A program made the position numbers and the translations under genes. A model generated the notes under the pieces. It did no database searches. It was not told the DNA's origin and was given only the letters and a program-made list of their open reading frames with translations. From positions 6,882,001-6,946,000 of the forward strand of contig NZ_CP022098.1 in assembly GCF_002305875.1 (NCBI RefSeq): a stretch of 64,000 bases of DNA, read 5' to 3'. Below are positions 10,832 to 64,000 of the stretch, piece by piece (position 1 is the first letter of the stretch; each line of letters starts with the position of its first letter). Source of the DNA: Cystobacter fuscus (GTDB taxonomy: Bacteria > Myxococcota > Myxococcia > Myxococcales > Myxococcaceae).

Positions 10832-10852
10832 CGCCCCGCGGGAAGCGGGGCG
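10832..10852 (-). terminator. Hairpin between graspetide precursor and ligase
   Basis: CGCCCCGC, loop GGGAA, GCGGGGCG: a perfect 8-bp stem in the gap between the precursor stop (10883) and the ligase start (10811). It could attenuate read-through and keep precursor mRNA in excess. No T-tract, so function is inferred. Confidence 0.5.
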
Positions 10853-10882
10853 CGCACGAGCTCGAGATGGGATGGATCCTGC

Positions 10883-11047
10883 TCAGTCCAGGGCGCTGAT
10901 CTCCGGCTCGGGCTGGTCGGGATCGGTATAGACCGTCTTGAACAGGCTACCGTCCTGCTGGTCCTGCTCGGACAGAGTGACTTCGCACGCGGTCATGCGC
11001 GCAAACGGCCGCACGGCTTCGGAAGACTGCGAGACATTGCTGTTCAT
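10883..11047 (-). CDS. Graspetide precursor peptide
   Basis: 54 residues from ATG 11047, with AGAGGAG about eight bases upstream; the longer upstream frame has no such site. The leader contains VRPFARMTACEV, reminiscent of the PFFARFL helix that microviridin ligases recognise. The C-terminal end FKTVYTDPDQPEPEISALD pairs two Thr (38, 41) with a run of acidic residues (Asp42, Asp44, Glu47, Glu49), the composition expected of a core crosslinked by omega-ester bonds. It is immediately followed by the ATP-grasp gene. The core does not match the microviridin TxKYPSDW or plesiocin TTxxxxEE patterns. The leader/core boundary is a guess. Confidence 0.8.
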   Translation of the reverse strand: MNSNVSQSSEAVRPFARMTACEVTLSEQDQQDGSLFKTVYTDPDQPEPEISALD

Positions 11048-11704
11048 CGCCACGACTCCTCTGCTTGGGATGTGCACTGCCCCACGCGAGCCCGTCGCGC
11101 GAAGGCGGCCCACACCGTACTCCCATCCTCGGCGGATTTCAATTCTCTGGGTCCCACGGCTCTCCGAGGAATGCGCAGAACACGATGGGTTGGATGGCGC
11201 CCATGGAAACCTCATCCGGCAGGGGGGGTCGATGACCTTCACGGCGTACGCTCCGGCAGCGTAACACAGTTTCATCATTGCCCCGCACTCAGGCGCCCTC
11301 GATGTGGATGCTCGCCCGGCTCATGACAGGGTCCACCGTCATGTGGTGCCACGCCACCGGGTCGAGGTGGGCCAGTGGCTCGGGCTCGGCGCGCGGGCCC
11401 GCGTCCTCCAGCCACATGGATGCTCTTCCGGCGGCACGGCGCGAGCCGCATCTCGCGAGAGGAGCGCGTCGCGGGTGGAGTGAACGCGGCGGTCGGTGTT
11501 TGACACCTCCTCGTGGGAAGGAGCGGGCACATGGCCCGAGGAATGTGAAGTGTTGGCCCTGAACCAACCAACCGTTCAACCCGTCGATAGCCCCTCTCTG
11601 TTCAAAAGGAATTTCCGCGTGAAGTATAGATGCGACGAATGCCGTGCGCCCGTCGCATGGCGCTCGCGAATTCGACGACTCTTCACGCGGAGACCCAACT
11701 GACA
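11048..11704. other. Intergenic region between the graspetide locus and the protease
   Basis: Should hold the divergent promoters of the precursor (leftward) and the metalloprotease (rightward). A minus-strand frame ending at 11289 reads MWLEDAGPRAEPEPLAHLD then ends MSRASIHIEGA and may be the last ~45 codons of a lost gene; I do not recognise it. Nothing else stands out. Confidence 0.35.
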
Positions 11705-14280: not shown

Positions 14281-14370
14281 CTAGTATCCCGTGTAAGGTT
14301 GAAGTTGGCCCCACGACTCTGTCGCGGCGGCGTGGAACCTTCTGCCTTGTGGATTCTCCTTCGCCACGCC
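14281..14370 (-). pseudogene. Residual C-terminal tail of a lipoprotein toxin
   Basis: In the frame ending at 14281 the minus strand reads GVAKENPQGRRFHAAATESW then GQLQPYTGY and stop. This is the counterpart of the tail at 2013-2100. Everything upstream of these ~29 codons is replaced by a SnoaL-like fragment, so the toxin is dead. Confidence 0.75.
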
Positions 14371-14521
14371 CGGCCAGGCCGAGCGGCCGGTCGTTGTGGC
14401 GCACGTCGTCGTCGACGAACTCGCCCAGACCTGCCAGCTCCCGCCGGTTGAGGCAGTCGAGGTAACGCCGGTAGAGGGCGGGAAGATCGGGGGCGGTCAA
14501 GGCGGTCGCCTCGTCGGGCAT
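14369..14521 (-). pseudogene. N-terminal fragment of a SnoaL-like protein
   Basis: About 51 residues (LPALYRRYLDCLNRRELAGL..FVDDDVRHNDRPLGLAG) look like the start of a SnoaL-like/ester-cyclase fold protein. The rest is lost where the toxin tail begins. The IS element ends ten bases upstream of its ATG, so the promoter is displaced as well. Confidence 0.5.
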
Positions 14522-14530
14522 GGCGGCACC

Positions 14531-16284
14531 CTAGAACACCGACCGATTTGATTTTTTAGTAAAATCAGGGATTTACGTGAGGGGATGGACAACAGGGGCT
14601 GAATTTGATCAGGTCGGCACATGACCTTAGCCGTCAGTCCGCCGAAGGTGACCGGAGAGATAGCTCGATGGACTCCTCCGCGGGAGTTGAACGAGCAAGA
14701 GCAACAGATTGTCGAACGGATGAGCCGTAACGGCAAGCTGTTCGCTTTTCTGCGTCTGAATCGGCACAAGCTGATGGATGAGGCTTTTCAGGCGGAACTG
14801 GCCTCCATGTACCGCCAGACAGGAGCAGGGAAAGTGGCTATAGCACCCGGGCTGATGGCAATGGCAATACTCTTACAGGGATACATGGGAGTGTCGGATG
14901 CCACCCTGGTGGAACTGACGGTCTTCGACTTGAGAGTGCAGATGGTGTTGGGCTGGTTGGGTCACAGCGAGCCGGCGTTCTCCCAGGGCTCGTTGTATGA
15001 GTTTCGTCAGCGGCTGATGAGAAACCAAATGGACCGGCGCCTCCTGGAGAAGACAGTCGAGGTGGCGCGGGAACAGAAAGAGTTCGGTGAGCGAAAGCTC
15101 AAGACGCTGTTGCGAGTGGCGATTGACTCAAAGCCACTGGAGGGAGCTGGCCGGGTAGAGGACACCATCAACCTGGTAGGACACGCAGCGCGCAAGGTGA
15201 TGATGTGCGTGGCGAAGCTGCTGGGATGTTCCAAGCAGCAGGCCTGCCGAGAGGCGGGTATTCCCTTGTTGTTGGAAAAAAGTATCAAGAAGGGATTGGA
15301 TGTGGACTGGAGCGAAGCGGGGCAGAAAAAGAAAGCGCTGCAAGCCCTGCTCGAGCAAGTGGAAAGCATGCTGTCCTGGCTAAGAAAGAATCTGGCAGAG
15401 GAGATGGAAGAGGAGCCTTTGAGGGAACACGTTCAGACTCTCGAGCAGATTCGCAAGCAGGACCTGGAGCCGGACCCAGAAGGAGGAGGTGTCCGCGTTC
15501 GCCAGCAAGTGGCGGAAGAGAGACGAGTGTCGGTAGAAGATGGGGAGATGCGTCATGGACGCAAGAGCAAAAGCAAGCGCTTCAACGGATTCAAGCAGCA
15601 TGTGGCCACGGCGCTGGACGAAGAACTCATCCTGGCATGTGCTGTGACGCCCGCCAACCGACCTGAAGCGGAGGCAACACCGGCGCTTGAGAAGGACATG
15701 GAGAAGCAAGGAGTGAAGATTGACGAGTTACACATAGACCGGGGGTATATCAACAGCAGTATCGTGGACAGCGTGCTCGAGGAGGGAGGGGAAGTGCTGA
15801 GCAAGCCGTGGAAGGCACGCAATGGGGAGTTGTTCGCGAAGTCAGACTTCAAAATAGATATGCGAAGCCGGACCATCACGTGTCCGGAGGGGAAGACAAT
15901 GCGCTTCGAACTGGGAAAGACAGTCGAATTCGCGACAAAGGACTGTGAGACTTGTCCATTGCGCGAGAAATGTACACAAGCCCAGATAGGACAAGGACGG
16001 ACTGTGGCAATCAGTGAAGATGAAGCGCTCCAGCACAAGTTGCGCAAATTAATGAAGACACCTGCTGGGCGAGAGCGACTCAGGAAGCGAGTAGGGGTGG
16101 AACATCGACAAGCCCATATAGCGCGACGACAGGGGCGTCGTGCGCGCTATCGGGGCGTGCGTAAGAACGTCTTTGATCTACGACGTGCGGCCAGCATCCA
16201 GAATTTGGAGACATGGCAACGCCATCTAGAGTTGTCCCAGCAGCAGGTGGGATGATGTGGTTTTTAAATCGGTCGGTGTTCTAG
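14531..16284 (+). mobile_element. IS1182-family insertion sequence
   Basis: 1754 bp with perfect 19-base terminal inverted repeats (CTAGAACACCGACCGATTT at 14531-14549 and its complement at 16266-16284) around one transposase gene. CACC flanks both ends (14527-14530 and 16285-16288), and the outermost CTAG is itself a palindrome. The 4-bp target duplication is therefore either CACC or CTAG. The element is complete and probably active. Confidence 0.92.
14621..16255 (+). CDS. IS1182-family transposase
   Basis: 544 residues. It has the N-terminal DUF772-type region (MAMAILLQGYMGVSDATLVE..GWLG..AFSQGSLYEFRQRL), an RNase H-like DDE core with AIDSKPLEGAG (first Asp), LHIDRGYINSS (second Asp), and a C-terminal zinc-type cluster CETCPLREKCTQ. 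A closing YRGVRKNVFDLRRAA..NLE motif is typical of IS1182. Its codon use is less GC-rich than its neighbours. No frameshift is visible, and the gene lies between intact inverted repeats. Confidence 0.95.
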   Translation: MTLAVSPPKVTGEIARWTPPRELNEQEQQIVERMSRNGKLFAFLRLNRHKLMDEAFQAELASMYRQTGAGKVAIAPGLMAMAILLQGYMGVSDATLVELTVFDLRVQMVLGWLGHSEPAFSQGSLYEFRQRLMRNQMDRRLLEKTVEVAREQKEFGERKLKTLLRVAIDSKPLEGAGRVEDTINLVGHAARKVMMCVAKLLGCSKQQACREAGIPLLLEKSIKKGLDVDWSEAGQKKKALQALLEQVESMLSWLRKNLAEEMEEEPLREHVQTLEQIRKQDLEPDPEGGGVRVRQQVAEERRVSVEDGEMRHGRKSKSKRFNGFKQHVATALDEELILACAVTPANRPEAEATPALEKDMEKQGVKIDELHIDRGYINSSIVDSVLEEGGEVLSKPWKARNGELFAKSDFKIDMRSRTITCPEGKTMRFELGKTVEFATKDCETCPLREKCTQAQIGQGRTVAISEDEALQHKLRKLMKTPAGRERLRKRVGVEHRQAHIARRQGRRARYRGVRKNVFDLRRAASIQNLETWQRHLELSQQQVG

Positions 16285-48890: not shown

Positions 48891-49604
48891 TGCGAGGCCC
48901 CGCCCGGGTGGAGCCGGTGGAGTCGCTCGTCTGCCAGGCGCGCCCTCGCGGAGTCGCGTGATTTCGCTGCTTCCCGGACAAGGCCGTATTACAAGAGGCT
49001 CGAGCACCTGCTCGGATAGTAGCTGCCCGAATAGGTACGATATTCGCCAGCATTTGGAGTCACAACCTCGTCCCGGGCAGTCTCACACATACGACCAGCA
49101 ACCACCAAGGAGGGCATCAAGCAGTCAAAGCCGAGATCACATGGCTCGAACCTGGAAGGCCCGCCCGGGGAGATCCTGAGAAGATTCTAAGCCAGGCGCC
49201 ACAACCCGCCCCTGCAGGGGCTGAGTGTATTCCTCAGAGATCTCTCAGCTACGGCGGCACGACAGGCCCTACATCCAATGAGTTCGCGGGGTTACGAACT
49301 CGCTTTACTTCATTGGCTCTCATTCACTATGAGGCGCCCCCTCTTCGCCCCCCTCTTGCTGTCGCCTTGGAATCACCTGGCCACAGCCTGCAAGTGTTTC
49401 CCGATCAGTTCTCTCATTCATTGAGAAGAAGATGATTTTCAAGAGTCTGAATTAAGTGGCTTCTATGATCACAGCTCATAAGCCAGCCACAATCACACAT
49501 CACCACGGAAATAAAATCATGGAAAATTCCGTGAAGTTCGTCTTTTGCGTCACGGCGCGCATCGAGGCGCAGGTCAGCGATCTCGGGATGTCGGGGGATG
49601 GGTA
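48891..49604. promoter_or_regulatory. Long AT-richer region upstream of the NRPS cluster
   Basis: About 700 bases, the least GC-rich non-coding DNA here, especially 49,230-49,560. It contains a hairpin at 49280-49301 (GAGTTCG, 8-base loop, CGAACTC) inside wider arms CCAAT/ATTGG at 49275 and 49312. A weak second inverted repeat (TTCTC/GAGAA) lies at 49409-49427. It is probably the promoter and leader of the cluster. Confidence 0.5.
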
Positions 49605-49605
49605 A
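49465..49605 (+). CDS. Possible 46-codon leader ORF
   Basis: ATG 49465 (or ATG 49519, 28 codons) opens a frame ending ..VSDLGMSGDG and TAA at 49603-49605. The last A of the stop is the A of the next gene's ATG (TAATG). The overlap could couple translation. The product has no known similarity and the ribosome site is weak, so it may be fortuitous. Confidence 0.3.
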   Translation: MITAHKPATITHHHGNKIMENSVKFVFCVTARIEAQVSDLGMSGDG

Positions 49606-51416
49606 TGTCCGGGATTGCCGGGTGGATCGATCGCGAACGCGACCTGAGGACTGAAGGGCTGGCCGCGTCCCAGCTCGTGGCGGCGCTCGTCGCGCGTGGG
49701 CGTCACGGCGAGGGTCTGTGGCTAAGCCCACGGGCGATATTGGGGCAGCGGACGGATGCCGTCTGGGTAGGGACGGCCCAGCCGGCTGTGATTGAGCAGA
49801 ACGGTCGGGCGATGGTTGCGGCGGTGTGCGATGGGTACCTTCACAACGCGGATGACCTGTGGGCCGCCGCGGGTGCTGGTCCCAGTGCGGGAGGGCCCCC
49901 GTCGGTGGCCGAGGTCGTGCTGCATGCCTACCTGCGGTGGGGGCACGAGGCGGTGGAGCGGCTGGAGGGCAACTTCGCCTTCGCCGTCTGGGACGCTCGG
50001 ACCGACGAGCTGCTACTTGGACGAGACCGGGTGGGCATCAAGCCACTGAGCTATGCCCTGCTACCCCATGGCGTCGTGTTCGCCTCGGAGGTCGCGGCCC
50101 TGGCGGCGCACCCCCTGGTGACTCCGGAGGTCGACGACAATGGGCTATGCGCCCTCGTTACCCAGTTGCGCAGCCCCGGGCGCGGGGCGCTGCGCGGCAT
50201 GTACGAAGTACCGGCGGGCGGTACGGTCCGATTCACGCGCGACCGGGAGCTCCACCGCCGGTACTGGACGCTGGAGGCCCGCCCCCACACCCTCGGCCGC
50301 GAAGACACCATCAAGCAGATCCGTGAGCTGCTCGTTGACGCCATCAGCCGAGATCTGCGCGGCCTCGATCCCGCGGTCCTGCTCTCGGGTGGCCTGGACT
50401 CCAGCGCGCTGACAGGTCTGATCGCCAGCAACTCCGGCAAGCCACCGCGGACATTCACGGTGATGTTCGGCGACACGGCGGCCGCGGTGCCAGATCGGCC
50501 GTTCGCCGAAGAGGTTGTCCAGATGTGGGGCTGCGAGCACCACGAGGTCGCGGTCCGCCCGCAGGAGCTGTCTGATCCAGTGCTCCTGTCGTCCGTGCTC
50601 GCGGCGAAGGACCACCCGTCACCCTTCGGGGACAAGAACATCACCCCGTTCATATTCAGCCGGCGCGTCGCGGAGCGGGTGCCAGTGGTACTCAGCGGAG
50701 AGGCCGCTGATGCCATCTTCAGCGGCCTCTCCGGTGCGACCGACGGGGTGCGCGAGCCCTCCATGTTTCCTTGGATCGCGCGAGCCCGCGGGTTCGGCAT
50801 GGAGTACGGAATCGGCACCGGGCTGTTTGACGAGGCGTTACTGAGATCGGTGGACGTCGCCGGCTACCTGGATCGGCTGTACCGCGAGGCCAAGGCAGAG
50901 GTACCGCAGCTCGCGGGCACCGCCGCCGCCGACCGTGTGGCGCGAGAGGTGGACTATCTCCATGTGACGCGCCTGTTGGAGCAGACGGTCTATCACTCGG
51001 AGCGGCTCGGAGCGGCGGCGGGGCTTCAGATCCGATTCCCTATTGCCGACCACCGCCTGGTCTCTTATCTGTACAACGTTCCATGGCAATTGAAGCGCTT
51101 CGACGGACGTGAGAAGAGCCTGCTCCGGGCCATTGCCAAGGATCTGGTGCCCCCGTCGGTGCTCACGAGGGCCAAGGTTCCCTACCCGATCACCTATGAC
51201 GCGCACTACAAGGCCTCGCTCATCACACGGCTGCGGATGCTGCTCGATGACTCGACTGCCCCCGTACGTCCGTTGATTGACCTTCGTCGCGCCGCGGAAG
51301 TCATCGAGAACCACCGCCTGCTTGACCGCGGTGGCTGGCTCGGTCGGGCCGACGTCGAAATGGTCCTCCAACTCGACAACTGGCTTCGTCGATTGCGCGT
51401 ACGCGTCAATCTCTAG
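49605..51416 (+). CDS. Asparagine-synthetase-like amide/lactam synthetase without glutaminase Cys
   Basis: 603 residues. The N-terminus MSGIAGW aligns with the MCGIAGW of asparagine synthetases, but the glutaminase nucleophile Cys2 is Ser. The glutamine-pocket motifs are altered too (RGPDG to RGRHG; NGEIYN to DGYLHN). The synthetase half keeps the ATP PP-loop VLLSGGLDSSALTG, a GEAADAIFSG loop and the KSLLRAIAKD..LTRAKVPYP end with its Lys. Such glutaminase-dead members (beta-lactam synthetase, carbapenam synthetase, lasso cyclases) adenylate a carboxylate and use an amine or ammonia. It is the first large gene of the NRPS cluster, 25 bases before the adenylation gene. Start fixed by family alignment. 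Confidence 0.85.
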   Translation: MSGIAGWIDRERDLRTEGLAASQLVAALVARGRHGEGLWLSPRAILGQRTDAVWVGTAQPAVIEQNGRAMVAAVCDGYLHNADDLWAAAGAGPSAGGPPSVAEVVLHAYLRWGHEAVERLEGNFAFAVWDARTDELLLGRDRVGIKPLSYALLPHGVVFASEVAALAAHPLVTPEVDDNGLCALVTQLRSPGRGALRGMYEVPAGGTVRFTRDRELHRRYWTLEARPHTLGREDTIKQIRELLVDAISRDLRGLDPAVLLSGGLDSSALTGLIASNSGKPPRTFTVMFGDTAAAVPDRPFAEEVVQMWGCEHHEVAVRPQELSDPVLLSSVLAAKDHPSPFGDKNITPFIFSRRVAERVPVVLSGEAADAIFSGLSGATDGVREPSMFPWIARARGFGMEYGIGTGLFDEALLRSVDVAGYLDRLYREAKAEVPQLAGTAAADRVAREVDYLHVTRLLEQTVYHSERLGAAAGLQIRFPIADHRLVSYLYNVPWQLKRFDGREKSLLRAIAKDLVPPSVLTRAKVPYPITYDAHYKASLITRLRMLLDDSTAPVRPLIDLRRAAEVIENHRLLDRGGWLGRADVEMVLQLDNWLRRLRVRVNL

Positions 51417-51441
51417 TCTCCTCAAAACAAGGCAAAAGAAT

Positions 51442-52971
51442 ATGTCGACGACATCAGCAGGTGACCTCTACAGCCTGTTCTCGCATCAGGCCGCCAGGGT
51501 TGCCGCCCGAGATGCGGTGCGCGACCAGCGCGGCAGTTTGACCTACGCGGAGCTTGCCCGCCGCGCGGATGTGCTCGCGGTGGCGATCCGCGAGATGTGT
51601 CCGCAGCCGGGTACCCGCATCGGTCTACACCTGGGGCGCACGGCCGACGTGGTGGTGGCAGTGCTCGCGATCATCGCGACCGGCCACACGTACGTGCCGC
51701 TCGATCCGGCGTACCCACTTGAGCGGCTCAAGTTCATGGCCAGCGACAGTGGACTGACAGTCATCATCTCCGACCGGGAGGCGCCTGACGGAATCGGCGT
51801 CGCGAGAGTGCTTCGCCTGGACCGGGTCGACTGGTCCCGGGACGTCCCCGTTTCGCCGAGGATCGAGGCCGACCCCGAGAGCGCCGCCTACATCATCTAC
51901 ACCTCGGGCTCGACGGGTCTGCCGAAGGGCGTGGAGGTACGCAGGCGCAGCGTGGTGGCCATGGTGAACGCCGTGTGCTCGCGGCACCAGTTTGGCGAAA
52001 CCGACGTGTGGACGCTCTTTCACTCCTACTGCTTCGACTTCTCGGTTTTCGAGATGTGGGGAGCGTTGGCCACGGGTGCCACCCTCGTGGTGGTGCCGGC
52101 GGAGGTCGCCGCCTCGCCGCGCGCCAGTGCCGAGTTGCTCGTACGGGAGCGGGTCACGGTCATGAACATCGTGCCGTCGGTCTTCCGCTACCTGACCGCG
52201 GCCACGCGGCAGCTCGCGGATCGCCCCGTAAGCGTGCGCCGCATCATTTTCGGTGGCGAGTCGATCGATGTGGCCGACATCCGCTCCTGGCGGGACTCGG
52301 TTCGTGCCGACTGTGAGTTCATCAATACCTACGGCATCACGGAGACCACGGTGTTCGTCACCACTCGACCGATTCTGCCCGCCGAGCTCCAGTCCACCGG
52401 CGATGAACGCGAATTCGCCACCGACCTCGGCGAGCCATTGAATGGCTGGGAGCTCCAGGTCCTCGACGACAGCGGCGCTCCCGTCGAGCCGGGGGGAATT
52501 GGCGAGATCTGGGTTGCCGGTGATGGAGTCGCTGTCGGCTATCTCAACCGGCCCGAACTCACCGCGGAACGGTTCCGCCAGCTGGCGCTCCCTGGCCATC
52601 CTCCGAGGGTTTACTACCGCAGTGGTGACCTGGCCACGCGGACGACGAACAACGTGTATTGCTATTCGGGTCGAGCCGACGATCAGGTGAAGATCAACGG
52701 CTTCCGGATCGAACTCGGAGAGGTCGAGGCGGCGCTGCGCAAGGCCTCCGGGCTCCGGGAACTGGCCGTGGTCTGTACCCGTAGCCGGGTAGGAGGCCGG
52801 ATGCTGTCTGCCTTCTACGCCGCCGACGCCGTTTCGACGCAGGAACTCACCGCGCTCGCCCGCGCGACGCTCCCCGCCCACATGGTGCCCGGACGATTCG
52901 TTCAGTTGGCGGAGTTGCCGCGAAACGCGTCTGGCAAGACCGACCGGCGGGCACTGTCGGAGCGTCAGTAG
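51442..52971 (+). CDS. Stand-alone NRPS adenylation enzyme
   Basis: 509 residues: an A domain alone, no carrier or condensation domain. Core motifs: YIIYTSGSTGLPKG (A3), FDFSVFEMWGAL (A4), INTYGITETTVFV (A5), YRSGDLATR (A7), GRADDQVKINGFRIELGEVE (A8) and NASGKTD with the catalytic Lys (A10). By eye the ten-residue pocket code is D-F-F-N-I-G-T-V-F-K, close to the Thr code DFWNIGMVHK but with Phe for Trp and changed rim residues, so a Thr-like or small hydroxy/branched residue is plausible. It should aminoacylate a carrier in trans; the best candidate is the first PCP of the giant NRPS, which has no A domain of its own. Confidence 0.9.
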   Translation: MSTTSAGDLYSLFSHQAARVAARDAVRDQRGSLTYAELARRADVLAVAIREMCPQPGTRIGLHLGRTADVVVAVLAIIATGHTYVPLDPAYPLERLKFMASDSGLTVIISDREAPDGIGVARVLRLDRVDWSRDVPVSPRIEADPESAAYIIYTSGSTGLPKGVEVRRRSVVAMVNAVCSRHQFGETDVWTLFHSYCFDFSVFEMWGALATGATLVVVPAEVAASPRASAELLVRERVTVMNIVPSVFRYLTAATRQLADRPVSVRRIIFGGESIDVADIRSWRDSVRADCEFINTYGITETTVFVTTRPILPAELQSTGDEREFATDLGEPLNGWELQVLDDSGAPVEPGGIGEIWVAGDGVAVGYLNRPELTAERFRQLALPGHPPRVYYRSGDLATRTTNNVYCYSGRADDQVKINGFRIELGEVEAALRKASGLRELAVVCTRSRVGGRMLSAFYAADAVSTQELTALARATLPAHMVPGRFVQLAELPRNASGKTDRRALSERQ

Positions 52972-53011
52972 CCCCGCACAGACCTGCCGCCATTCGAGCC
53001 CGAGGAATCCG

Positions 53012-54778
53012 ATGAGCAAGAAACCCCGTAACTTCTCCAGCGACCCGAGTCGGCCCAGCTTCCTGGAGGAGCTCTATCAGGGCAGGTTCCGCTGGGACCT
53101 GATCCGAGACTTTCCTGTCCAGGATGCACAGGACCGGGCCGAGGGCGACCGCCTCGTCGAGCAGTTGAACGTCCTGCTTCGCGAGCGAATCGACCCCACG
53201 GCCGTTGACCGCGACCGCCAGCTACCTGAAGGCTTCCTCGCGGAGCTGGCCACGCGCGGCTACTTTCGGCTGCAGGCGGATCGAGCGGTCGGCGGGCACG
53301 AACTCTCGCACTACAACACGTTCCGGGTCGTCGTGGCGGCCGCGAGTTGGAGCACGCCGGTCGCACTGTCGATCGCGATCGAGAACGCGCTCGGCGCCAG
53401 CGCGTTCCTCTCGGTTGTGCCCGAAGGGCCGCTGCGTGAGTTGTTGCGCGCGCATGTTGCTCGCGGCGGCCTCTCGGCCAGCGCCGACAGCGAGCCCCAG
53501 GGGGCGGCGAACCAGCGTCGCGCCACCACCGCCACGCGAGTCGAAACGGCGGAGGCCTATCTGCTGAACGGCCAGAAGGTCTTCGTGGGGCACGCGCCCG
53601 TCGCCGAGCTGGTCAGCGTCTCGGCGACGATCCGCGACAACGGCCAGGAGCGGGTCCAGATGTTCTTCGTGCGGACCGACAGCCCTGGCGTGACCGCCGG
53701 ACAGTGGCACGAGTACATGGGAATCAAGGGCTTCCCCAACGGCTGGCTGAACTTCGACAACGTGCTCGTGCCCGCGGACCAGATGTTCGTGGAGCGCGCC
53801 TCCGAGCATCAGGTCCGGGTGACCCCGGAGACCGCGAAGATGGTGGCTCGGGGCCGGCTGCACCTCATCGCGGCGCCGTCGCTGGCGATCGCCAAGCTGT
53901 GCGTGCAATGGGCGCGAGACTTCGTGCTGCGGCGGGAGGTCGACGGCCGGAAGCTGGCGGACTACCAGGAGATTCAACAGCAGCTGGCGGAGTCGCTCGC
54001 GCAGACCTTCGCGATCGAGACGATGTCTCAGTGGTGCCTGCTTCCGGATGACCAGGGGCGGCAGATCAACCAGCGCTTCGAGCAGAACGCCTCCAAGAAC
54101 GTCAGTTCGCTGCTCTGCTGGGACGTCGTCGACCGGACGATGTCGCTGCTGGCGGCGGAGGGCTATGAGACCGCGCACAGCAAACAACAGCGGGGTGCGC
54201 CGCCGGTCCCAGTCGAGCGGTTCATGCGCGACGCGCGCAACCTGCGGATCTCCGGGGGCGTGGACTTCCAGATCGACAACTGGATCGCTCGGATGTCGAT
54301 CCTGTCGTACTACTACCCCGAGCCCGACCACGCGGACGAACTGGCGAAGAACGAGCCAGTCCGGGGCGATTTCGACGGCGCCGTCCTCACCGACCGCAAC
54401 CTCGGCCACCTCCGCTGGGTCGCGGACGAGGTCCATCGGTTCGGGGCGACCTGTCTGGAGTTGGCGCGCCGCAACCCCGACCGTGCCTCGCTGCAGGAGA
54501 ACGAGCGGACTCTCATCTTGCTCACCGGCATTGCCCGAGAGCTCCTCGTCATGTCCCTGACGCTCGCCCGCGCCTCCAAGATGGCCTCGACCGGCGACCA
54601 CAGCGGGCAGGAGCTGGCCGACGTGTATTGCGTATCGGCCGGGCACCGCATCGCCGATCTGCGTCGCCGGCTCTCCGCCAACGCTCCCGCCAATGTCCCA
54701 TCGCTCAACGCCGCCTGGCTGAGCGGCACCACCCTCGATCACCTCACCTACGACGCCGCCACCGGCTCCCGGCGCTGA
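53012..54778 (+). CDS. Long acyl-CoA-dehydrogenase-like flavoprotein
   Basis: 588 residues; GAGGA precedes ATG 53012. ACAD layout: N-terminal helices (LPEGFLAELATRGYFRLQAD), middle beta domain (LNGQKVFVGHAPVAELVSVS..GIKGFPNGWLNFDNVLVP) and C-terminal helices, plus a ~150-residue extension as in VLCAD/ACAD9. The position of the MCAD-type catalytic Glu (IYEGT) reads RISGGVDFQIDN, i.e. Gly415, so the usual alpha-proton base is missing. In biosynthetic clusters such proteins act on carrier-bound or free keto acids; one such group makes epoxyketone warheads. It starts 41 bases after the A-domain gene. Confidence 0.85.
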   Translation: MSKKPRNFSSDPSRPSFLEELYQGRFRWDLIRDFPVQDAQDRAEGDRLVEQLNVLLRERIDPTAVDRDRQLPEGFLAELATRGYFRLQADRAVGGHELSHYNTFRVVVAAASWSTPVALSIAIENALGASAFLSVVPEGPLRELLRAHVARGGLSASADSEPQGAANQRRATTATRVETAEAYLLNGQKVFVGHAPVAELVSVSATIRDNGQERVQMFFVRTDSPGVTAGQWHEYMGIKGFPNGWLNFDNVLVPADQMFVERASEHQVRVTPETAKMVARGRLHLIAAPSLAIAKLCVQWARDFVLRREVDGRKLADYQEIQQQLAESLAQTFAIETMSQWCLLPDDQGRQINQRFEQNASKNVSSLLCWDVVDRTMSLLAAEGYETAHSKQQRGAPPVPVERFMRDARNLRISGGVDFQIDNWIARMSILSYYYPEPDHADELAKNEPVRGDFDGAVLTDRNLGHLRWVADEVHRFGATCLELARRNPDRASLQENERTLILLTGIARELLVMSLTLARASKMASTGDHSGQELADVYCVSAGHRIADLRRRLSANAPANVPSLNAAWLSGTTLDHLTYDAATGSRR

Positions 54779-54799: not shown

Positions 54800-57700
54800 A
54801 TGAACACCGCACCACGGCAAATCCCTCTCTCCGTCGGACAAGAGGCCATGTGGATTGGCTGGAAGCTGGATCCCAGCCAATGGTCGCACATCATCCCGAC
54901 CCCATTCCTGGTGCGCGGCACGCTCGATATGACGCGGCTGCGCACGGCCATCGCGGCACTGGGAGAAGCCTACCCACAGCTTCGGGCACGGATCACGTCG
55001 GGCGCCGACGGGCTCGTGCTGGACTGGCCCGACTCGCCGCCTATCGAGGTGCGGGAGTCGACCTTCGTGGGCGACCGTGACGCGGCCGTACGCCGGACCT
55101 GGCAGCGCCCCTTCGACCTTCGCCGAGGGCCGTTGGCCCGGGTCGATGTGTTGCGTGGGCCGGACGAGACGGTCCTGCTGCTCGCGATCCACCACCTCGT
55201 GTTTGACGGGGCGTCGATCCTGATCCTGCTCGATGCCTTGCGCCGGGCCTATGCGGGCGAGTCGCTGCCTCCGGCCGACCCTACCGCGGCGTTGACGGAG
55301 TATGCTCGCCGTTCGCGGGAGCTGGCCGATACCACCGCCGGTGATCCGTCCCGGGAGTACTGGCGCCAGGTCCTGGGCGCGGCGGCTCCGGAGTTCGCCC
55401 TGCCCGCCACCGTCGATGCACCGCAGTACACGGTCCGGAGTGAAACACTCGAGCCACGGCTCGTCGCCGACTTGCGCGGCCGCGCCGAGGACCTGGGCGT
55501 TTCCTATGTCACCGTCCTGATGGCCGGGTATTTCGCGCTGCTGCGCCGGCACACCGGCTCCGAGGACGTGATCTCGTTCCTGCCGTTTCACGGGCGGACC
55601 ACCGAATCGCTGCGCGACCGGATTGGCTACTTCGTGAACGCACTGCCGATCCGCAGTGAGGTCCGCGGTTCGGACAGCTACGCCGCTCTGGTGCACCGCC
55701 TGCGCGGCCGGGTCAAGGATGCGATGCGGCACGGCGAGCTGCCGCTGCCGGCCATCATGCGAGCGGCTGGGCTGACCGGCCCGGCCGCCCGTGCGCGGAC
55801 CCACCAGACAGTGTTCCAGTATTGGAATGCGGGATTGCGTGATGGCGTCGATGTGCAGGCACTGCGGCTGAGCGCTCCCGATGCGACCGCCACCTTGAGC
55901 CTGCTGGACATGGAAAGCACCGCGGGGTTCACCCTGGCCGTCATGGTCCGCGAGGACAGCGCGGGAACGCATGTGCTGTGGAAGGATCCGGCCGGGGCCG
56001 TGGGCCCGACCAGGGTCGCCGCGATGGCGGCCGACTATCACGCGATCCTGCGCGAGCTGAGTACGAACCCGAACGCCGCGCTGCCCGCACTGGCCGCGCC
56101 GAGCCCGACAGCGTCTTCCGCCCCCCTCGCCACCAATACCCGCCCCGCGGCCGCGTACCCCGCCGAGGTCGCCGCGATGGTCGGCGTCTGGCAGGAGGTC
56201 TTGGGCGTCGGCGGGATCACCCCCGAGGACTCGTTCTTCGAGCTGGGCGGGCATTCGCTGCTCGCGGAGAGTCTGGTTCTCGCGGTGTCGCGTCACTTCG
56301 GCACGGAGGTCTCGATCCGGACGTTGTTCGAGTATCCGCGCCTGGCTGACTTCGCGGAGCAGGTCCGGGCGTCGAAGCCGAACGTGGCCGCCGAGAGCAT
56401 TTCTCCGCCCGCTGCCCCCGTCGTGGAGATACCCGCGTCCAGCTTCCAGCAGCGCATCTGGTTCGCCGAGCGGGTGGAGTCCGGCCGTGCCACCTACAAC
56501 GTCCCGCTGGCGTGGCGGGTTCCCGGTGGCGGCCTCGATGCGACGGAGTTGTCCCACGCGCTGGCCAGGATGGTGGCGCGACACGAGTTGCTGCGCACCG
56601 CGTTCCACGAGCGCGACGGCGAGTTGTGGCAGGTCGTCGGCGAGCCGTGGTCACCCCACGTCGACAGCGTCAACCTGCGCGATTGCGCGGACTCGGAGGC
56701 GGCGCTGCGCGACTGGCTGGCCGGTGCCTCCCACCATGAGTTCGATCCGGCGTCTGGACGCCTGCTGACCGCGGCCCTCGTTGAGCTCCCCGGGGCCGAC
56801 CAGCTGGTTTTCCTGTGCCTGCACCACCTGCTGTGGGACGGCGAGTCGATGGGCGTCCTGCTGCGGGAGCTGAACTCCTATTACAGGCCCACCGCCGCCG
56901 GCAGCACGGTGGTCGTGTCTGCTCCGCCGGCAACCGACTCCGGTCTCCCGGCGATGGCGCGCGCCGCCTCGGCCCATCAGGAACGGATGTGGTTCGTCGA
57001 CCGGTTCGAGGCCGGCCACGTGTACCCGACGTCGCCCGTGTACCACAACCTGCCTCTGTTCCTTCGGGTTGACCGTCTCGCCGCCCCCGACGTGCTGGCC
57101 AAGGCGCTCGACGCGGTCGTACGGGCACACGAGTCCCTGCGCACCGTGCTCGACAGCGTCGAGGGTCGGATCGTGCAGCGAGTGCGATCCGAGGTGACGG
57201 TCAGCCCGCAGTGGCTGCCAGCGCGGCCCGGGGTGGCGGGCGCCGGTGTGCCCGAGGCACTGACCGACTGGGCGGCGGCCCCGTTCGATCTGACGAGCGG
57301 CTGTCTGCTGCGGGTCGCCGTGTTGCCCGAGCAGTCTGGCGGCGGTTGGCTGGCACTCGTTGGCCACCAGGCGGTGGTCGACCGGGCCTCCCTGCGGCTC
57401 GTCGCCGAGCAACTCCTGGCCGGCATGGCCGGCGAGGCCCCCGTCCAGAGCAGCTACGCCGGCTGGCTGGATGAGGTGTCGGCCGCGGTCAAGGCCGAGC
57501 ACCTGGACTCCCGTGCGGCTCGACTGCAACCCGCCGTCGACGTGCTGCGGCTCCCCGAGCGGCGGCCGCGCGAGGCGATCCACGTCTACGAGGAGCGGCG
57601 CGTCGCGTTCTCGTTGCCCACCGCCCTCGTGGCCAACGCGGAACGGCTTGGCTTCAACGTCTCGGACGTGCTGCTGGGAGCCTTCACCGCGCTGCTCGGC

Positions 57701-60700
57701 TGGTATTCCGGCCAGCAGGACATGGTCATCGGCGTCAGTCACCCCGGGCGGCGCGCGGAGACCCGGCATGTAGTCGGCCCGCTGGCCAACCTGTTGCCGG
57801 TGCGGCTGCGCCCGGCCGTGAGCATGCCTTTCACCGCGCTCGTCGGGCAGACGGCCGCCGAGACGGCCCACGCCCGAGCGCATGATCAGGCGTTCTTCGA
57901 CGAGCTGGTACGCCGGGTCGACCCGTCCAAGGACATGAGCCGTACGGCCTTGTTCGACGTGCTGTTCACGTACTCCGAGGATCCCAGGCTGATTCGTACC
58001 TCCGGCGGCCTCGTCGCCGAGGAGGTTCAGACGGCCAGCGGATACGGCAAGTACGATCTGCACCTGTTCCTGCAGCCGGGCTCCAGTTCGCTCGAGGGCT
58101 GGCTTGTCTTCAATGGCCGGTACTTCGACGACGACCAGGTGCGGGCCATGACCGAGCACTATCGCGCGCTGCTCGACCAGCTCATCGCCGCACCCGAGCG
58201 GGCGATCGGCGATGCCGATCCGTTGACCGAGGACGAGCGGTACACCCAGCTGATGGTGTGGAACGCCACCGATGCCGGGTACCCCGAGACGGCGGTCCAC
58301 GATCTCATCCGGCAGCGGGCACTCGCCCGGCCCCAGGCGGTGGCCATCACCGCGGGGGACATCTCGCTGACCTACCGCGAGCTGCTGGATCGGGCCGAGG
58401 CACTGGCGCGGGCGCTGGTGGCGAAGGGCGTCGGCCGTGGCGACCTGGTGGCCCTGCTGCTGCCGCGCGGCCCCGAGCAGGTCCAGGCGATGCTGGCCGT
58501 CCTGCTGGCCGGCGCCGGGTACCTGCCGATAGACCCAGCACTGCCCCGTGACCGCGTGCAGTTCATCCTCGCGGACTCGGGCACCCGGTGGGCCATCGTG
58601 GCCGACGATGCGGTGCCGCATCCGGGTCTGGACGGCTTCGCCGGACAGGTCATGCACCCGACCCAGTCCGACAGCTCCGGAGCGGCGCTGCCGCGGGTCG
58701 CGCTGGATACGCCGGCGTACTGCATCTACACGTCTGGGACGACCGGCCGGCCCAAGGGCGTCGTGATCACGCATCGCAACCTCGTCCGGCTGCTGGTCAA
58801 CGACCGCTTGCCGTTCAGCTTCGGTGCGTCCGACGTCTGGACGATGTTCCACTCCTACGCCTTCGATTTCTCGGTATGGGAGTTGTTTGGCGGCCTGGTC
58901 CACGGCGGACGGGTGGTCCTGGTCACCCAGGAGCAGGCGAAGGACCCCGAGCAGTTCTGGGAGCTGCTGCAGCGCGAGCGCGTCACGGTCCTCAACCAGA
59001 CGCCCAGCGCGTTCCGGCGGCTGCTCGGGTTGAAGCCCCAGTCGCCCAGCAGCCTCAGCCGGTTGCGCTACGTCATCTTTGGCGGAGAGGCGCTGCGTCC
59101 GGCCATGCTCGGCTCGTGGATGGAGCGCTACCCGCATGTGCGGCTGGTCAACATGTACGGCATCACCGAGACCACCGTGCACTCGAGCATCCGCACGGTC
59201 ACCCGGGCTGATGTCGACTCCGACGCCAGCATCATCGGCACGCCGATCCCCACGACCACGCTCCTGCTGCTGGACCCGGTCACCCGCGGCCGGCTGTTGC
59301 CCGTTGGCGCGGTGGGCGAGATCTTCGTCGGCGGCGCGGGCGTGGCCGGCGGCTACCTGAACCGGCCGGAACTCACGGCGCAGCGCTTCGTCGCCTCGCC
59401 CGTCGGCTCCGGCACCCTGTTCCGCAGCGGGGATCTCGCCCGCTACACCCCCGACGGCGCGCTGCACTTCATTGGCCGCGCCGATTCCCAGGTGCAGCTG
59501 CACGGCTACCGCATCGAACTCGGAGAGATCGAGTCCTGCCTGCGCGAGCATCCCGCGGTCGTCGAAGCGGTCGTCATCGCCGAGGACGATCGCCTCGTCG
59601 CGGTCGTCCAGAGCCGGGCCGGGGTCGCCCTGGCCGAGCTGCGTGGCCACCTGGCACGCAAGCTGCCCGAGTACATGATCCCCTCGGTGTTCCAGCTCGT
59701 CGACAAGATGGTGCTGACCTCGAACGGCAAGCTCGACGTCGCCGCCGTGCGTGCCCGTGCCGTCCCGCTGGACAGCGGCGCCGGCTCCGAGCCTCGCACC
59801 CCCACGGCTGTCGCGATGGCTGGCATCTGGTCCGAGCTGCTCGGTGTCGACAATGTGTCCGCCGATGACTCCTTCTTCGCCCTCGGCGGTCACTCCATGC
59901 TGGCGGTCCGGCTGGTCAACCAGCTCCGCCGTCGGTTCCAAATCGACCTGCCGATGAAGACGCTGTTCGAGTGCCCCCGGCTGCAGGATCTCGCGGACCT
60001 GATCGACCAGAAGATCGGCGGGCAGCCGTCCGCCGGGCACTCCGGATCGTCCTCGGCGCGCGCCGCGGGTGAGCTGGCCGCCACCGCCTTCCAGCGACGC
60101 CTGTGGCTCGCCGAGACCTTCGACGAGCAGGCCCGCAACAACGTGGTCCTGGCCTGGAAGGCAGCCGGCAGGCTCGACGTCGAGCTGTTGGGTCGCGCCC
60201 TGAGCCAGCTCGTGGCCGGGCACGAGTTGCTGCGGACGGCATTCGTGGCCGACGAGGACACCGTCCGGCAGGTGGTGACCGGCGGATGGCGGCCCGAGGT
60301 GGAACTGCTGGACCTGCGCGCCTCGCGTGACCCCGACGCCGAGATGGCGCGGTGGCTCGACACGGCCGCCAGCAGACGATTCGACCTCGCCTCGGGCCGG
60401 CTGCTGCGAGCGGCCGTGGCCGACCTCGGCGCTCAGGGGCACGCGCTGCTTTTGTGCCTGCACCACCTCGTCATCGACGGTGAGTCCGTCCCCGTGCTCC
60501 TGGCCGAGCTGGACCGTTACTACCGTGCGGTCGTCACCGGCGAAACCGCGGCGCCGCCAGCCGTGCAGTACCGGGACTTCGTGGCCTCGCAGGAGGCCCG
60601 CCAGGACACGGCGCGGCGCGAGGACGCGCTGGACTACTGGCAGCGAAAACTGGCCGACGCACCGGCGAACCTGGCGTTCCCCGCGCCGGTTCCGGCGGGC

Positions 60701-63700
60701 CGCAACGGCGCTGTTCGCGTGCCACTCCCGGCGGGCCTGCCCGACCGGCTGCGGCCGCTGCAGACCCAGCACGGGGTCACGTGGTTCATGGCGTTCGGCG
60801 CCGCGCTGGCCGTCGCGCTGCACCGGTGGACGGGACAGCGCACCATCACCCTGGGCGTGCCGGTCTCGACCCGGGACCCCGCCAGCTTCACTGGGCTGCT
60901 CGGACCCTGCCTGAACACGCTCGTGCTCCGCTCGGACCTGGCCGCCGGCGCTCCCCTCGGCGACGCCCTCCAGGCGATGCGCACCGAGATGCTCGGCGCG
61001 CTCGAACACGCCGGGGCTCCGTTCGAGGAGGTCGTGAACCGGCTCTCCCCGGCCCGCGGTGTGGGGCACACGCCCTACATCGATGTGACGCTCAACATGA
61101 ACCTGCGCAGCGCCCGGCGGGCCCTGCTGGGCGGGATCGAGCTGACCCCGCTGTTCTTCGACTCGCTGTGGTCGCACGAAGCGAAGTTCGGTTTGACCCT
61201 GACGGTCGCCGAGCAGGACGGCGAACTGACCGCCATTCTGTCGTATCAGGGGCAGCGTGTATCCGCCGCGGACGCCGCGGCACTGGCCGACAGCATTGCC
61301 GGGCTGCTCGGCGAACTCACCGAAGCGCCACAGGGTCGTTCGTCCCGGGGGAGCGCGACGAGCGCCGCCGATGACCGGGTGCAGTACCGACACTTCGTCA
61401 CCGCGCAGATCTCGCAGCGGGACAGCGTGCAGCGCCGGAACGATCTGGCCTACTGGGAGAACAAGCTGGCGGGTGCCCCGGCCTACGTGGAGTTCAGCCC
61501 CCCGGCGGAGCCTGGACCCCACGGCGTCGTGACGATCCCACTGCGCGCCGACCTGCTGGAGCGGTTGCGACCGTTGCAGGCCCGGTATGGCGTCACACCG
61601 TTCATCGTCACGGCGGCGGGCCTGGCCGCTCTGCTCCACCGCTGGACCGGCCACGCCGACGTGGTGATCAGCAACCCGATCGCGAACCGTGACAACCCGG
61701 ACTTCGCCGAGCTGCTGGGGCCGTGCCTGAACACGGTGGTGCTGCGCTCCCAGCTCGCCAGCAACGCGACGTTCCTGGACGTCTTGCACGGCATGCGCTC
61801 GGAGGTGCTGGAGGCTTTCGAGCACGCGGGGGCACCGTTCGAGGAGGTGGTGGAGCGGCTCAACCCGCACCGCCGACCCGGTCGGACTCCGTACGCGGAC
61901 GTGTCGCTGACCTTCAGCGCCGTGCCGGCACAGCCCGCCTCGCTGGCCGGACGCCCGTTGCAGGCCGCCGACATCAGCCACGCGGGTGCTGGCTACGCCG
62001 GCAAGCTTGGCCTCACCGTGGGCTTCACCCTGGACGGTACGAAGCTGTCCGGCAACGTCGCGTACCATGGGGCGCGCTATCGCCGTGACGACGTGGAGCG
62101 CTTCGCCACCCTGCTGGGCCGGCTGATGGAGCTGATGCCGGACCACCTGGATCAGCCGGTGGCGGCGCTCGACGTCGCCGCGGACGAGCTCGCGCGGCTG
62201 CGCCGGTGGGAGCGCGGACCCGAGCCCGAGCCGATGACGCCGGTCCCCGCACTGGTGCTGCGGCACGGCCGCGACCGGGCCTCGGCACCGGCCGTCGAGT
62301 CGCTCCGTGGAACGCTGGACTACCAGGGACTCATCGGACGTGCACGGGCGCTGGCGGCCCGGATCCGACCGAGGCTGCGCGGCGCGGACCCGGTGGTCGC
62401 GCTGCTGCTCCCGCGCGGCGAGGACTTCACGGTGGCGATGCTGGGAAGCTGGCTGGCGGGTGCGGCCTTCTGCCCGATCGACCCGGTGTGGCCAGACAGT
62501 CGGGTGAGGTTCGTTCTCGAGGACCTCGACACGCCCGTGTTGCTCACCGACCACGACGGCGCGGCACGGTCAGGCTCCGTGCCGACCCTCCGCGTGGATG
62601 AGACGGACGCGACCGCGGGGGGCAGCGAGGCGGACGACCCGAACTGGAGCGCCGGATCCACCGCGTACGTGATCTACACCTCCGGCACCACGGGTACCCC
62701 GAAGGGCGTGGTCGTCACGCACGGGGGATTGGCCCAGCTGATCCAGTGGACCGCGCGCCACTACGCGATCGGCGACCGCGACCGCTGCTCGCATCTGATG
62801 AGCGTCGGGTTCGACGCCTCCCAATGGGAGGTCTGGTCCGCGCTGGCGACCGGCGCCTGCCTGGTGCCGCACGTGGAGCCAGTCGTCGCATCGACGGTCG
62901 GAGCCTGGCTGGACCAGCACGGCATCGACGTCGCGTTCATGGCCACGCCGCTCGCGGAGGCCGTATGGAGGGCCGGGACGGGCCCGAAGCGGCTGCGCTG
63001 GATGTTCATCGGCGGCGCCTCGCTCTCGGAGTGGCCGCCGCCCGGGCTGCCCTACAGGGTAGGCAACGCCTATGGCCCCACCGAGAACTCGGTGGTCGCC
63101 ACGATCCACGACCTCGAGGCAGTGCCGCAACCTCCCCTCAACCGGATCGGCCGGCCCATCGCTGGGGTTCGCGTGCTCGTGCTCGACCCACAGGGGCGCC
63201 GGTGTCTCGTGGGCGTCCCCGGTGAGATCTGCCTGGCTGGCGGCGGTCTGGCCACCGGCATTCTCCGGCGGCCAGACCTGACCGCCGACAGGTTCCGCTC
63301 GGTGGAACTCGATGGCGAGTCGATCCGGATCTACCGGACCGGCGACCTTGGCCGCTGGCTCGCCGATGGCACCGTCGAGTACCTGGGCCGGGCCGACCGG
63401 CAGCTCAAGATCCGCGGGTACCGGATCGAGCCCGGCGAGATCGAGCAGGTGCTGCTCCGCCAGCCGGAGGTGGCCCAGGCGGTGGTCCATGGCGATTCGC
63501 AACAGACCCCCGCGCTGGTGGCCTACGTGATCCCCAGCCAACCCGGCCGCACCGACACCGCGCGGTTGCTGGCGCGGCTGCGCTCCAGCTTGCCGGCCTA
63601 CATGGTCCCCGAGGCCGTGGTGTGGCTCACGGAATTGCCCCTGAACACCAGCGGCAAGGTCGACGTGGCCAGGCTGCCCCGTCCGATCCGAACGGACCTC

Positions 63701-64000
63701 GTCGGCGGGGGCGGATTCACGGCCCCTGGCAGCGAGCTCGAGCGCCGCATCGCCACGGTGTGGTCGGAGGTGCTGGGCACCCAGGACGTCGGTGCGCACG
63801 ACAACTTCTTCGACCTCGGCGGCAACTCGCTGAGCCTGGCCAGGCTGCATAGCCGACTGGTCGCGGAGCTGGGCCGCGACATCCCCATCGTCGACCTGTT
63901 CGAACACCCCACCGTGGCGGCGCTCGCCACGGCCTTGGAGAACGGCGCGCAGTCGGCACCGGTCCGGCCCCGCCGTGCGGCCCGGCCCGTTCGCCGCGGC
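54800..64000 (+). CDS. Giant NRPS, continues beyond the window; includes two half C domains
   Basis: At least 3067 residues in one open frame with no stop to the last base. Order by residue: C1 7-430 (HHLVFDG at 131-137), PCP1 (Ser486), an N-lobe-only C 544-700 (HHLLWDG 675-681), full C3 ~720-1140 whose motif is HQAVVDR (856-862, catalytic His lost), A2 ~1150-1640 with pocket DFWNIGMVHK (Thr), PCP2 (Ser1699), full C4 ~1760-2180 (HHLVIDG 1888-1894), a C-lobe-only C 2190-2480, A3 ~2490-2950 with pocket about D-A-W-M-F-G-A-V-V-K (hydrophobic), PCP3 (Ser3010). There is no thioesterase or reductase yet. C1-PCP1 has no A domain and probably takes its residue from the stand-alone enzyme. Start ATG 54800 lies 21 bases after the ACAD stop. 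Confidence 0.95.
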   Translation, partial: MNTAPRQIPLSVGQEAMWIGWKLDPSQWSHIIPTPFLVRGTLDMTRLRTAIAALGEAYPQLRARITSGADGLVLDWPDSPPIEVRESTFVGDRDAAVRRTWQRPFDLRRGPLARVDVLRGPDETVLLLAIHHLVFDGASILILLDALRRAYAGESLPPADPTAALTEYARRSRELADTTAGDPSREYWRQVLGAAAPEFALPATVDAPQYTVRSETLEPRLVADLRGRAEDLGVSYVTVLMAGYFALLRRHTGSEDVISFLPFHGRTTESLRDRIGYFVNALPIRSEVRGSDSYAALVHRLRGRVKDAMRHGELPLPAIMRAAGLTGPAARARTHQTVFQYWNAGLRDGVDVQALRLSAPDATATLSLLDMESTAGFTLAVMVREDSAGTHVLWKDPAGAVGPTRVAAMAADYHAILRELSTNPNAALPALAAPSPTASSAPLATNTRPAAAYPAEVAAMVGVWQEVLGVGGITPEDSFFELGGHSLLAESLVLAVSRHFGTEVSIRTLFEYPRLADFAEQVRASKPNVAAESISPPAAPVVEIPASSFQQRIWFAERVESGRATYNVPLAWRVPGGGLDATELSHALARMVARHELLRTAFHERDGELWQVVGEPWSPHVDSVNLRDCADSEAALRDWLAGASHHEFDPASGRLLTAALVELPGADQLVFLCLHHLLWDGESMGVLLRELNSYYRPTAAGSTVVVSAPPATDSGLPAMARAASAHQERMWFVDRFEAGHVYPTSPVYHNLPLFLRVDRLAAPDVLAKALDAVVRAHESLRTVLDSVEGRIVQRVRSEVTVSPQWLPARPGVAGAGVPEALTDWAAAPFDLTSGCLLRVAVLPEQSGGGWLALVGHQAVVDRASLRLVAEQLLAGMAGEAPVQSSYAGWLDEVSAAVKAEHLDSRAARLQPAVDVLRLPERRPREAIHVYEERRVAFSLPTALVANAERLGFNVSDVLLGAFTALLGWYSGQQDMVIGVSHPGRRAETRHVVGPLANLLPVRLRPAVSMPFTALVGQTAAETAHARAHDQAFFDELVRRVDPSKDMSRTALFDVLFTYSEDPRLIRTSGGLVAEEVQTASGYGKYDLHLFLQPGSSSLEGWLVFNGRYFDDDQVRAMTEHYRALLDQLIAAPERAIGDADPLTEDERYTQLMVWNATDAGYPETAVHDLIRQRALARPQAVAITAGDISLTYRELLDRAEALARALVAKGVGRGDLVALLLPRGPEQVQAMLAVLLAGAGYLPIDPALPRDRVQFILADSGTRWAIVADDAVPHPGLDGFAGQVMHPTQSDSSGAALPRVALDTPAYCIYTSGTTGRPKGVVITHRNLVRLLVNDRLPFSFGASDVWTMFHSYAFDFSVWELFGGLVHGGRVVLVTQEQAKDPEQFWELLQRERVTVLNQTPSAFRRLLGLKPQSPSSLSRLRYVIFGGEALRPAMLGSWMERYPHVRLVNMYGITETTVHSSIRTVTRADVDSDASIIGTPIPTTTLLLLDPVTRGRLLPVGAVGEIFVGGAGVAGGYLNRPELTAQRFVASPVGSGTLFRSGDLARYTPDGALHFIGRADSQVQLHGYRIELGEIESCLREHPAVVEAVVIAEDDRLVAVVQSRAGVALAELRGHLARKLPEYMIPSVFQLVDKMVLTSNGKLDVAAVRARAVPLDSGAGSEPRTPTAVAMAGIWSELLGVDNVSADDSFFALGGHSMLAVRLVNQLRRRFQIDLPMKTLFECPRLQDLADLIDQKIGGQPSAGHSGSSSARAAGELAATAFQRRLWLAETFDEQARNNVVLAWKAAGRLDVELLGRALSQLVAGHELLRTAFVADEDTVRQVVTGGWRPEVELLDLRASRDPDAEMARWLDTAASRRFDLASGRLLRAAVADLGAQGHALLLCLHHLVIDGESVPVLLAELDRYYRAVVTGETAAPPAVQYRDFVASQEARQDTARREDALDYWQRKLADAPANLAFPAPVPAGRNGAVRVPLPAGLPDRLRPLQTQHGVTWFMAFGAALAVALHRWTGQRTITLGVPVSTRDPASFTGLLGPCLNTLVLRSDLAAGAPLGDALQAMRTEMLGALEHAGAPFEEVVNRLSPARGVGHTPYIDVTLNMNLRSARRALLGGIELTPLFFDSLWSHEAKFGLTLTVAEQDGELTAILSYQGQRVSAADAAALADSIAGLLGELTEAPQGRSSRGSATSAADDRVQYRHFVTAQISQRDSVQRRNDLAYWENKLAGAPAYVEFSPPAEPGPHGVVTIPLRADLLERLRPLQARYGVTPFIVTAAGLAALLHRWTGHADVVISNPIANRDNPDFAELLGPCLNTVVLRSQLASNATFLDVLHGMRSEVLEAFEHAGAPFEEVVERLNPHRRPGRTPYADVSLTFSAVPAQPASLAGRPLQAADISHAGAGYAGKLGLTVGFTLDGTKLSGNVAYHGARYRRDDVERFATLLGRLMELMPDHLDQPVAALDVAADELARLRRWERGPEPEPMTPVPALVLRHGRDRASAPAVESLRGTLDYQGLIGRARALAARIRPRLRGADPVVALLLPRGEDFTVAMLGSWLAGAAFCPIDPVWPDSRVRFVLEDLDTPVLLTDHDGAARSGSVPTLRVDETDATAGGSEADDPNWSAGSTAYVIYTSGTTGTPKGVVVTHGGLAQLIQWTARHYAIGDRDRCSHLMSVGFDASQWEVWSALATGACLVPHVEPVVASTVGAWLDQHGIDVAFMATPLAEAVWRAGTGPKRLRWMFIGGASLSEWPPPGLPYRVGNAYGPTENSVVATIHDLEAVPQPPLNRIGRPIAGVRVLVLDPQGRRCLVGVPGEICLAGGGLATGILRRPDLTADRFRSVELDGESIRIYRTGDLGRWLADGTVEYLGRADRQLKIRGYRIEPGEIEQVLLRQPEVAQAVVHGDSQQTPALVAYVIPSQPGRTDTARLLARLRSSLPAYMVPEAVVWLTELPLNTSGKVDVARLPRPIRTDLVGGGGFTAPGSELERRIATVWSEVLGTQDVGAHDNFFDLGGNSLSLARLHSRLVAELGRDIPIVDLFEHPTVAALATALENGAQSAPVRPRRAARPVRRG

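Follow-up and report, generated by a model that had tools for sequence, protein, structure and literature searches.

The last open reading frame (ORF) in a 64,000-nucleotide stretch of the Cystobacter fuscus genome (contig NZ_CP022098.1, positions 6,882,001 to 6,946,000; hereafter the window) encodes a nonribosomal peptide synthetase (NRPS) of 3074 amino acids, read as a single frame on the forward strand from position 54800 to 64024. A hidden Markov model (HMM) scan at the level of the lobes of condensation (C) domains gave the domain order C1-PCP1-N*-[C3-A2-PCP2-C4]-oC-A3-PCP3, where A is an adenylation domain, PCP is a peptidyl carrier protein, and N* and oC are an orphan N-terminal lobe (N-lobe) and an orphan C-terminal lobe (C-lobe) of a C domain; the C domain made of N* and oC is referred to as C*. 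The chain has no A domain for PCP1 in cis. Conventional annotation would read it as C-PCP-C-C-A-PCP-C-C-A-PCP, which is confusing. The features are listed in Table 1.

Table 1. Features of the NRPS and the genes upstream of it (window positions; all on the + strand)
Feature	Position	Evidence and remarks
Asparagine synthase / glutamine amidotransferase	49545–51416	Pfam Asn_synthase 9.5e-63; homologues beside most relatives
Stand-alone A domain, code DFFNIGTVF	51445–52971	Pfam AMP-binding; 50–55% homologues beside L022, L058, L087, L089, L090
Acyl-CoA dehydrogenase (ACAD)-like warhead enzyme, EpxF family	53012–54778	PDB 9gn5 EpxF E=1.9e-177; next ACAD 2e-21
C1, complete starter-type C domain, HHLVFDG	54815–56089	PF00668 profile 4–405; own clade in lobe trees
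PCP1	56165–56374	HMM; Pfam PP-binding, three stretches
N*, orphan N-lobe, HHLLWDG at 56822–56842 (residues 675–681)	56423–56914	PF00668, N-lobe part only
C3, complete C domain, altered motif GHQAVVDR, opens nested block	56954–58213	Pfam profile 7–452
A2	58289–59764	HMM; code by alignment
PCP2, carrier within nested block	59792–60019	HMM
C4, complete C domain, HHLVIDG, closes nested block	60071–61333	Pfam profile 3–443; clade separate from C*
oC, orphan C-lobe directly after C4	61376–62140	PF00668, C-lobe part only
A3, code DAWFFGAVV (hydrophobic)	62234–63679	HMM; code by alignment
PCP3	63725–63946	HMM; ORF stop just past the window (L004 11025)

The two orphan lobes lie about 1,490 residues apart, and the residues between them hold C3-A2-PCP2-C4. 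Whereas C1, C3 and C4 each span most or nearly all of the Pfam C-domain profile PF00668 (456 positions), N* covers positions 4–167 and oC positions 171–450, i.e., the profile is fully covered by the two jointly and by neither alone. N* ends with the last helix of the C-domain N-lobe, and oC starts with the motif that opens the C-lobe and carries the core motifs numbered C4 to C7 (QYRHFVTAQ, GPCLNTVVLR, HAGAPFEEV and NPHRRPGRTPYADVSL). An earlier note on this DNA had described only an N-lobe after PCP1, with HHLLWDG and breaking off near residue 700, and only a C-lobe between C4 and A3, the two adding up to one C domain. The scan bears this out: N* occupies residues 542–705, C3 begins at about residue 719, and oC occupies residues 2193–2447. 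The opposite case considered there, that both halves are full C domains, is at odds with the partial coverage of PF00668 by each half.

The alignment proposed in that note confirmed that both lobes are C4-like, with N* being 46% identical to the N-lobe of C4 and oC 44–45% identical to its C-lobe, compared to merely 27–30% for each against C1 and C3. When concatenated, N* and oC align with C4 at 45% identity over 421 columns, joining without a large gap or overlap. The NRPS frames examined held 129 ordinary lobe pairs, and unpaired lobes were confined to the split-C family, where each complete protein has exactly one unpaired N-lobe and one unpaired C-lobe. The other unpaired lobes in these frames were fragments at locus ends and a double-hit artefact, L084, which was rejected as an orphan C-lobe because a single C-lobe had been matched twice. 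Judged from the sequence, N* and oC together are one complete C domain of the C4 kind, and there is good support for its having been divided by a block inserted where the lobes meet.

The split layout was also found in a genome of the same genus (G003, ~95%) and in ten Streptomyces records (L016–L021, L085, L086, L087 and L091; nine genomes and one linear plasmid), and whole-chain alignment of the window with L016–L021 ran end to end at ~57% identity. We refer to this form, with the nested block C3-A2-PCP2-C4, as type II. A smaller form, type I, has the layout N*-[PCP-C]-oC, without C3-A2, so that the split is represented by 12 type II records (the window included) and two type I records (L022 and L088). 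The 13 further records come from independent assemblies and include the complete linear plasmid of S. coelicoflavus, which contradicts the assembly error that the earlier note had kept in view. A very recent duplication in this strain is excluded because N* and oC are only 44–46% identical to C4, and the two explanations together retain next to no probability. Its conservation across myxobacteria and Streptomyces makes the layout look like a functional design rather than an error; the split layout is real, conserved and unusual. The S. coelicoflavus cluster (L091; NZ_CP108219.1, 64515–93432) lies on a linear plasmid of 308 kb, a possible route of cluster spread.

Relatives with an undivided C domain at this point, for which the earlier note had suggested a search, were found in two Streptomyces genomes (G246 and G305; L040/L041). 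In this form, type III, two proteins of one cluster share out the domains: one carries C1-PCP1-C3-A2-PCP2-C4 and the other C*-A3-PCP3, with C* undivided. The lobes of this undivided C* are the closest kin of N* (~60% identity of the N-lobe) and oC (~51% identity of the C-lobe). In type 0 (L058, L089 and L090), a C1-PCP-C protein has an ordinary complete C domain in the position after PCP1; the same asparagine synthase lies beside L058 and L089, and the same stand-alone A domain beside all three. A further candidate for an undivided C*, G928/L055, was rejected as a C1-PCP-C protein. The undivided relatives support insertion at the lobe junction, as the earlier note had proposed, but C-A-PCP-C is not the sole insert because the smallest nested block is PCP-C (L022 and L088). 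The family is a natural test set, in which the C domain is split around C-A-PCP-C, split around PCP-C, or undivided on a separate protein. Variation was also seen within single chains. In L022, from S. inhibens, the two N-lobes, N* and that of the nested C domain (10022–10480 and 10841–11320), are 82% identical and the C-lobes 44%, a contrast that may reflect gene conversion or the recent duplication of just one lobe. PCP1 is doubled in tandem in L018 and L087, and both copies score identically in L087, where the pair is probably a recent duplication.

Phylogenetic analysis grouped N* and oC with the corresponding lobes of the undivided C* of L040/L041, N* in the N-lobe tree (support 87) and oC in the C-lobe tree (Shimodaira–Hasegawa-like approximate likelihood ratio test, 99). 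In the tree of paired lobes, split and undivided C* formed one clade (100/99) apart from the C4 clade (98/97). These trees bear on which lobes belong together. In a crosswise alternative, the C-lobe of C4 would be the partner of N* and oC that of the C4 N-lobe, so that two C domains would interlock. The near-identical N-lobes of L022, which may be interchangeable there, would suit such an exchange, as would the tight tethering of oC to C4 (4–8 residues in the Streptomyces compared). However, the two-protein relatives have the N*-type and oC-type lobes joined in one stretch, as are the two lobes of C4, and the lobe trees agree with the nested pairing, which leaves the crosswise arrangement improbable.

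The trees also address the origin of the split. The C1 tree placed type III inside the split group, and monophyly of the split forms alone was rejected (approximately unbiased test, AU, p=0.009). Because its C1 sits there, the undivided two-protein form does not appear to be a simple 'before' state, and re-joining or replacement is suggested; we read the split as old, with re-joining or replacement coming later, and type III as no preserved ancestor. Better candidates for the 'before' state are the C1-PCP-C proteins of type 0. Consistent with a divided C*, a PCP-C or C3-A2-PCP-C block may have entered the lobe linker of the C domain following PCP1, the undivided C*-A3-PCP3 of G246/G305 being secondarily re-joined. 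This course of events fits the close paralogy of C* and C4, the smallest nested unit being PCP-C, the existence of C1-PCP-C proteins that share the upstream genes, and the nesting of the two-protein form in the C1 tree. Conversely, the C* tree has the undivided form outside the split forms, a weakly supported basal position (89/83; nested placement not rejected, p=0.35), the type I rows are long branches, and the same pattern would result if the C*-A3-PCP3 protein had been replaced horizontally, so that we hold this origin tentatively, at slightly less than even odds. The module gain in this lineage pictured by the earlier note does not fit a split that is old, common to Cystobacter and Streptomyces, and under purifying selection (see below).

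We interpret the layout as follows: N* and oC would come together in cis as a single active C domain, which would have a module enclosed in it and transfer the chain from PCP1 to the nested PCP2, a reading to which we assign a probability of roughly 60%. For its full architecture, a discontinuous C domain with the module threaded through the inter-lobe loop, the lobes meeting across the ~1,490 residues and the enclosed carrier serving as acceptor, we would put the chances at even. In such a domain, the inter-lobe loop would hold the folded block C3-A2-PCP2-C4, and the lobes would join in the same chain. C1 would cap residue 1 on PCP1, which is likely to be loaded in trans by the stand-alone A domain. 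C*, with its donor PCP1 just before its N-lobe, would join residue 1 to threonine on PCP2 (the code of A2, DFWNIGMVH, is one that we take to be threonine-type), and C4 would hand the chain from PCP2 to PCP3. oC would double as the C-A platform of A3, and C3 would be non-condensing, kept as the platform of A2 or in another role. The polyketide synthase (PKS), thioesterase and EpxF-like enzyme would then build an epoxyketone-type warhead. There are three intact C domains (C1, C* and C4) and three bonds (cap-PCP1, PCP1-PCP2 and PCP2-PCP3), and with no C3 in type I, C* is the only C domain there between the donor carrier and PCP2. Because the three bonds match and type I lacks another C domain for PCP2, the simplest account has C* acting from PCP1 to PCP2, C4 from PCP2 to PCP3, and C3 not condensing; we infer this division of labor from the sequence comparisons.

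The main rival holds that the orphan lobes are non-enzymatic: oC would serve A3 just as its C-A platform, and N* would be no more than a docking element or spacer after PCP1, with C3 condensing PCP1 to PCP2 and C4 forming the last bond. There is precedent in McyB, where A-domain specificity narrows when the C-terminal subdomain alone is expressed together with the A domain (reviewed in PMC11546977), and C1, C3 and C4 are collinear once C* is left out. The altered motif of C3 is strictly conserved: HQAV[V/A]DR in all type II proteins and HQAVADD in type III replace HHxxxDG (14/14 orthologues), which points to an active site that has changed yet remains under constraint. Against this rival, N* keeps HHxxxDG in 13 of the 14 split proteins and core motifs are kept in both lobes (in oC, Asn is changed to Asp in one motif of L086/L087); N* never occurs without oC in any complete protein; and type I contains no C3 at all. 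Selection was compared by the ratio of nonsynonymous to synonymous substitution rates (dN/dS) in three close pairs, which are so close that the ratios are rough. The values were 0.30, 0.17 and 0.10 for N* and 0.11, 0.37 and 0.34 for oC, similar to the other C domains, indicating that both orphan lobes are under purifying selection, whereas C3 (0.35–0.47) tends to be the highest of the C domains. On this balance we consider non-enzymatic lobes unlikely.

AlphaFold2 folded the undivided C* of L040 into one complete C domain with its two lobes packed in a single V-shaped fold (predicted local distance difference test 86.4; predicted template modelling score, pTM, 0.85), and its best matches among solved structures were C domains, with template modelling scores up to 0.84. 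The least certain inner loop of this model, residues 175–179, connects the last helix of the N-lobe to the first of the C-lobe and marks the lobe junction, where the window holds the nested block. In a model of the nested form from L022 (N*-PCP-C-oC; 996 aa, 9 rows), of pTM 0.43, N* and oC show the same order of helices and strands as the undivided C*.

Several observations weigh against an active, enclosing C*. The L022 model gave no usable lobe-lobe information. The one exception to the conserved N* motif, in L088, reads HHLVWDA, and in the two-protein relatives C* and PCP1 lie on different proteins. Furthermore, C3 could still condense, because some C domains stay active without the second His (PMC11546977).

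The surrounding genes point to the type of product. The NRPS belongs to a compact cluster (window 49545–54778 and L004 10976–17569) that also holds, besides the upstream genes of Table 1, an MFS transporter, a second ligase, a PKS module consisting of ketosynthase, acyltransferase (AT) and acyl carrier protein without a methyltransferase, and a free thioesterase. The locus therefore has an EpxF/EpnF-type dehydrogenase, an NRPS followed by one PKS module, a free thioesterase and an amidotransferase; the last two are reportedly part of the macyranone cluster as well. By gene content, this is an epoxyketone cluster, a macyranone-type system, and it probably makes protease or proteasome inhibitors of the epoxyketone type, a class relevant to drug development. 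The warhead itself is not certain because for the homologues MatG and SnaO the vinyl ketone has been proposed as the end point (PMC5719088, PMC11212132). The AT domain (L004 13845–16838) has the specificity motif TAGH rather than HAFH or YASH, which suggests an unusual extender unit. Beside the type I split NRPS of L088, which is accompanied by ACAD, PKS and thioesterase genes, a neighbouring PCP-C-PCP protein (14349–16280, + strand) carries EHHLIHDG, and signatures of this type mark ureido-forming C domains (PMC11212132).

The usual picture of NRPS modules is one of beads on a string, and a conserved C domain enclosing a whole module would, if true, break this rule: a domain would encircle its own acceptor module, conserved in distant bacteria, with natural variants having a smaller insert or the whole domain. 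The literature searched held no matching description of a split, interrupted or discontinuous C domain; the macyranone cluster paper may hold prior notice. Macyranone, from C. fuscus MCy9118, belongs to the epoxyketone family, with a PKS module without methyltransferase and a starter condensation proposed to proceed directly from acyl-CoA (PMC8009326, PMC11212132, PMC6274090). The window and its continuation contain all these gene types and may hold the macyranone cluster or a close relative. The epoxomicin, eponemycin and TMC-86A clusters (EpxF, EpnF and TmcF) likewise combine an EpxF-like flavoenzyme, an NRPS followed by one PKS module, and a thioesterase, but the PKS of the window lacks a methyltransferase, and no split C domain is described for those clusters in the literature covered. 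C3, with its conserved HQAVxDR/DD, resembles X domains and further C-like domains that do not condense (HRxxxDD) in having a conserved altered motif; unlike them it precedes an A domain, and it is not known to recruit a P450. A parallel to the junction comes from engineering, where XUC exchange units (CAsub-A-PCP-CDsub; PMC11546977) are joined at the same hinge, the point at which donor and acceptor lobes meet. XUC swaps rebuild whole C domains, whereas in the window a complete C-A-PCP-C lies inside one C domain, and instead of two chimeric complete C domains the lobes are left apart, unpaired in sequence. If C* does work as one domain, nature uses the lobe hinge that engineers now exploit as an insertion point.

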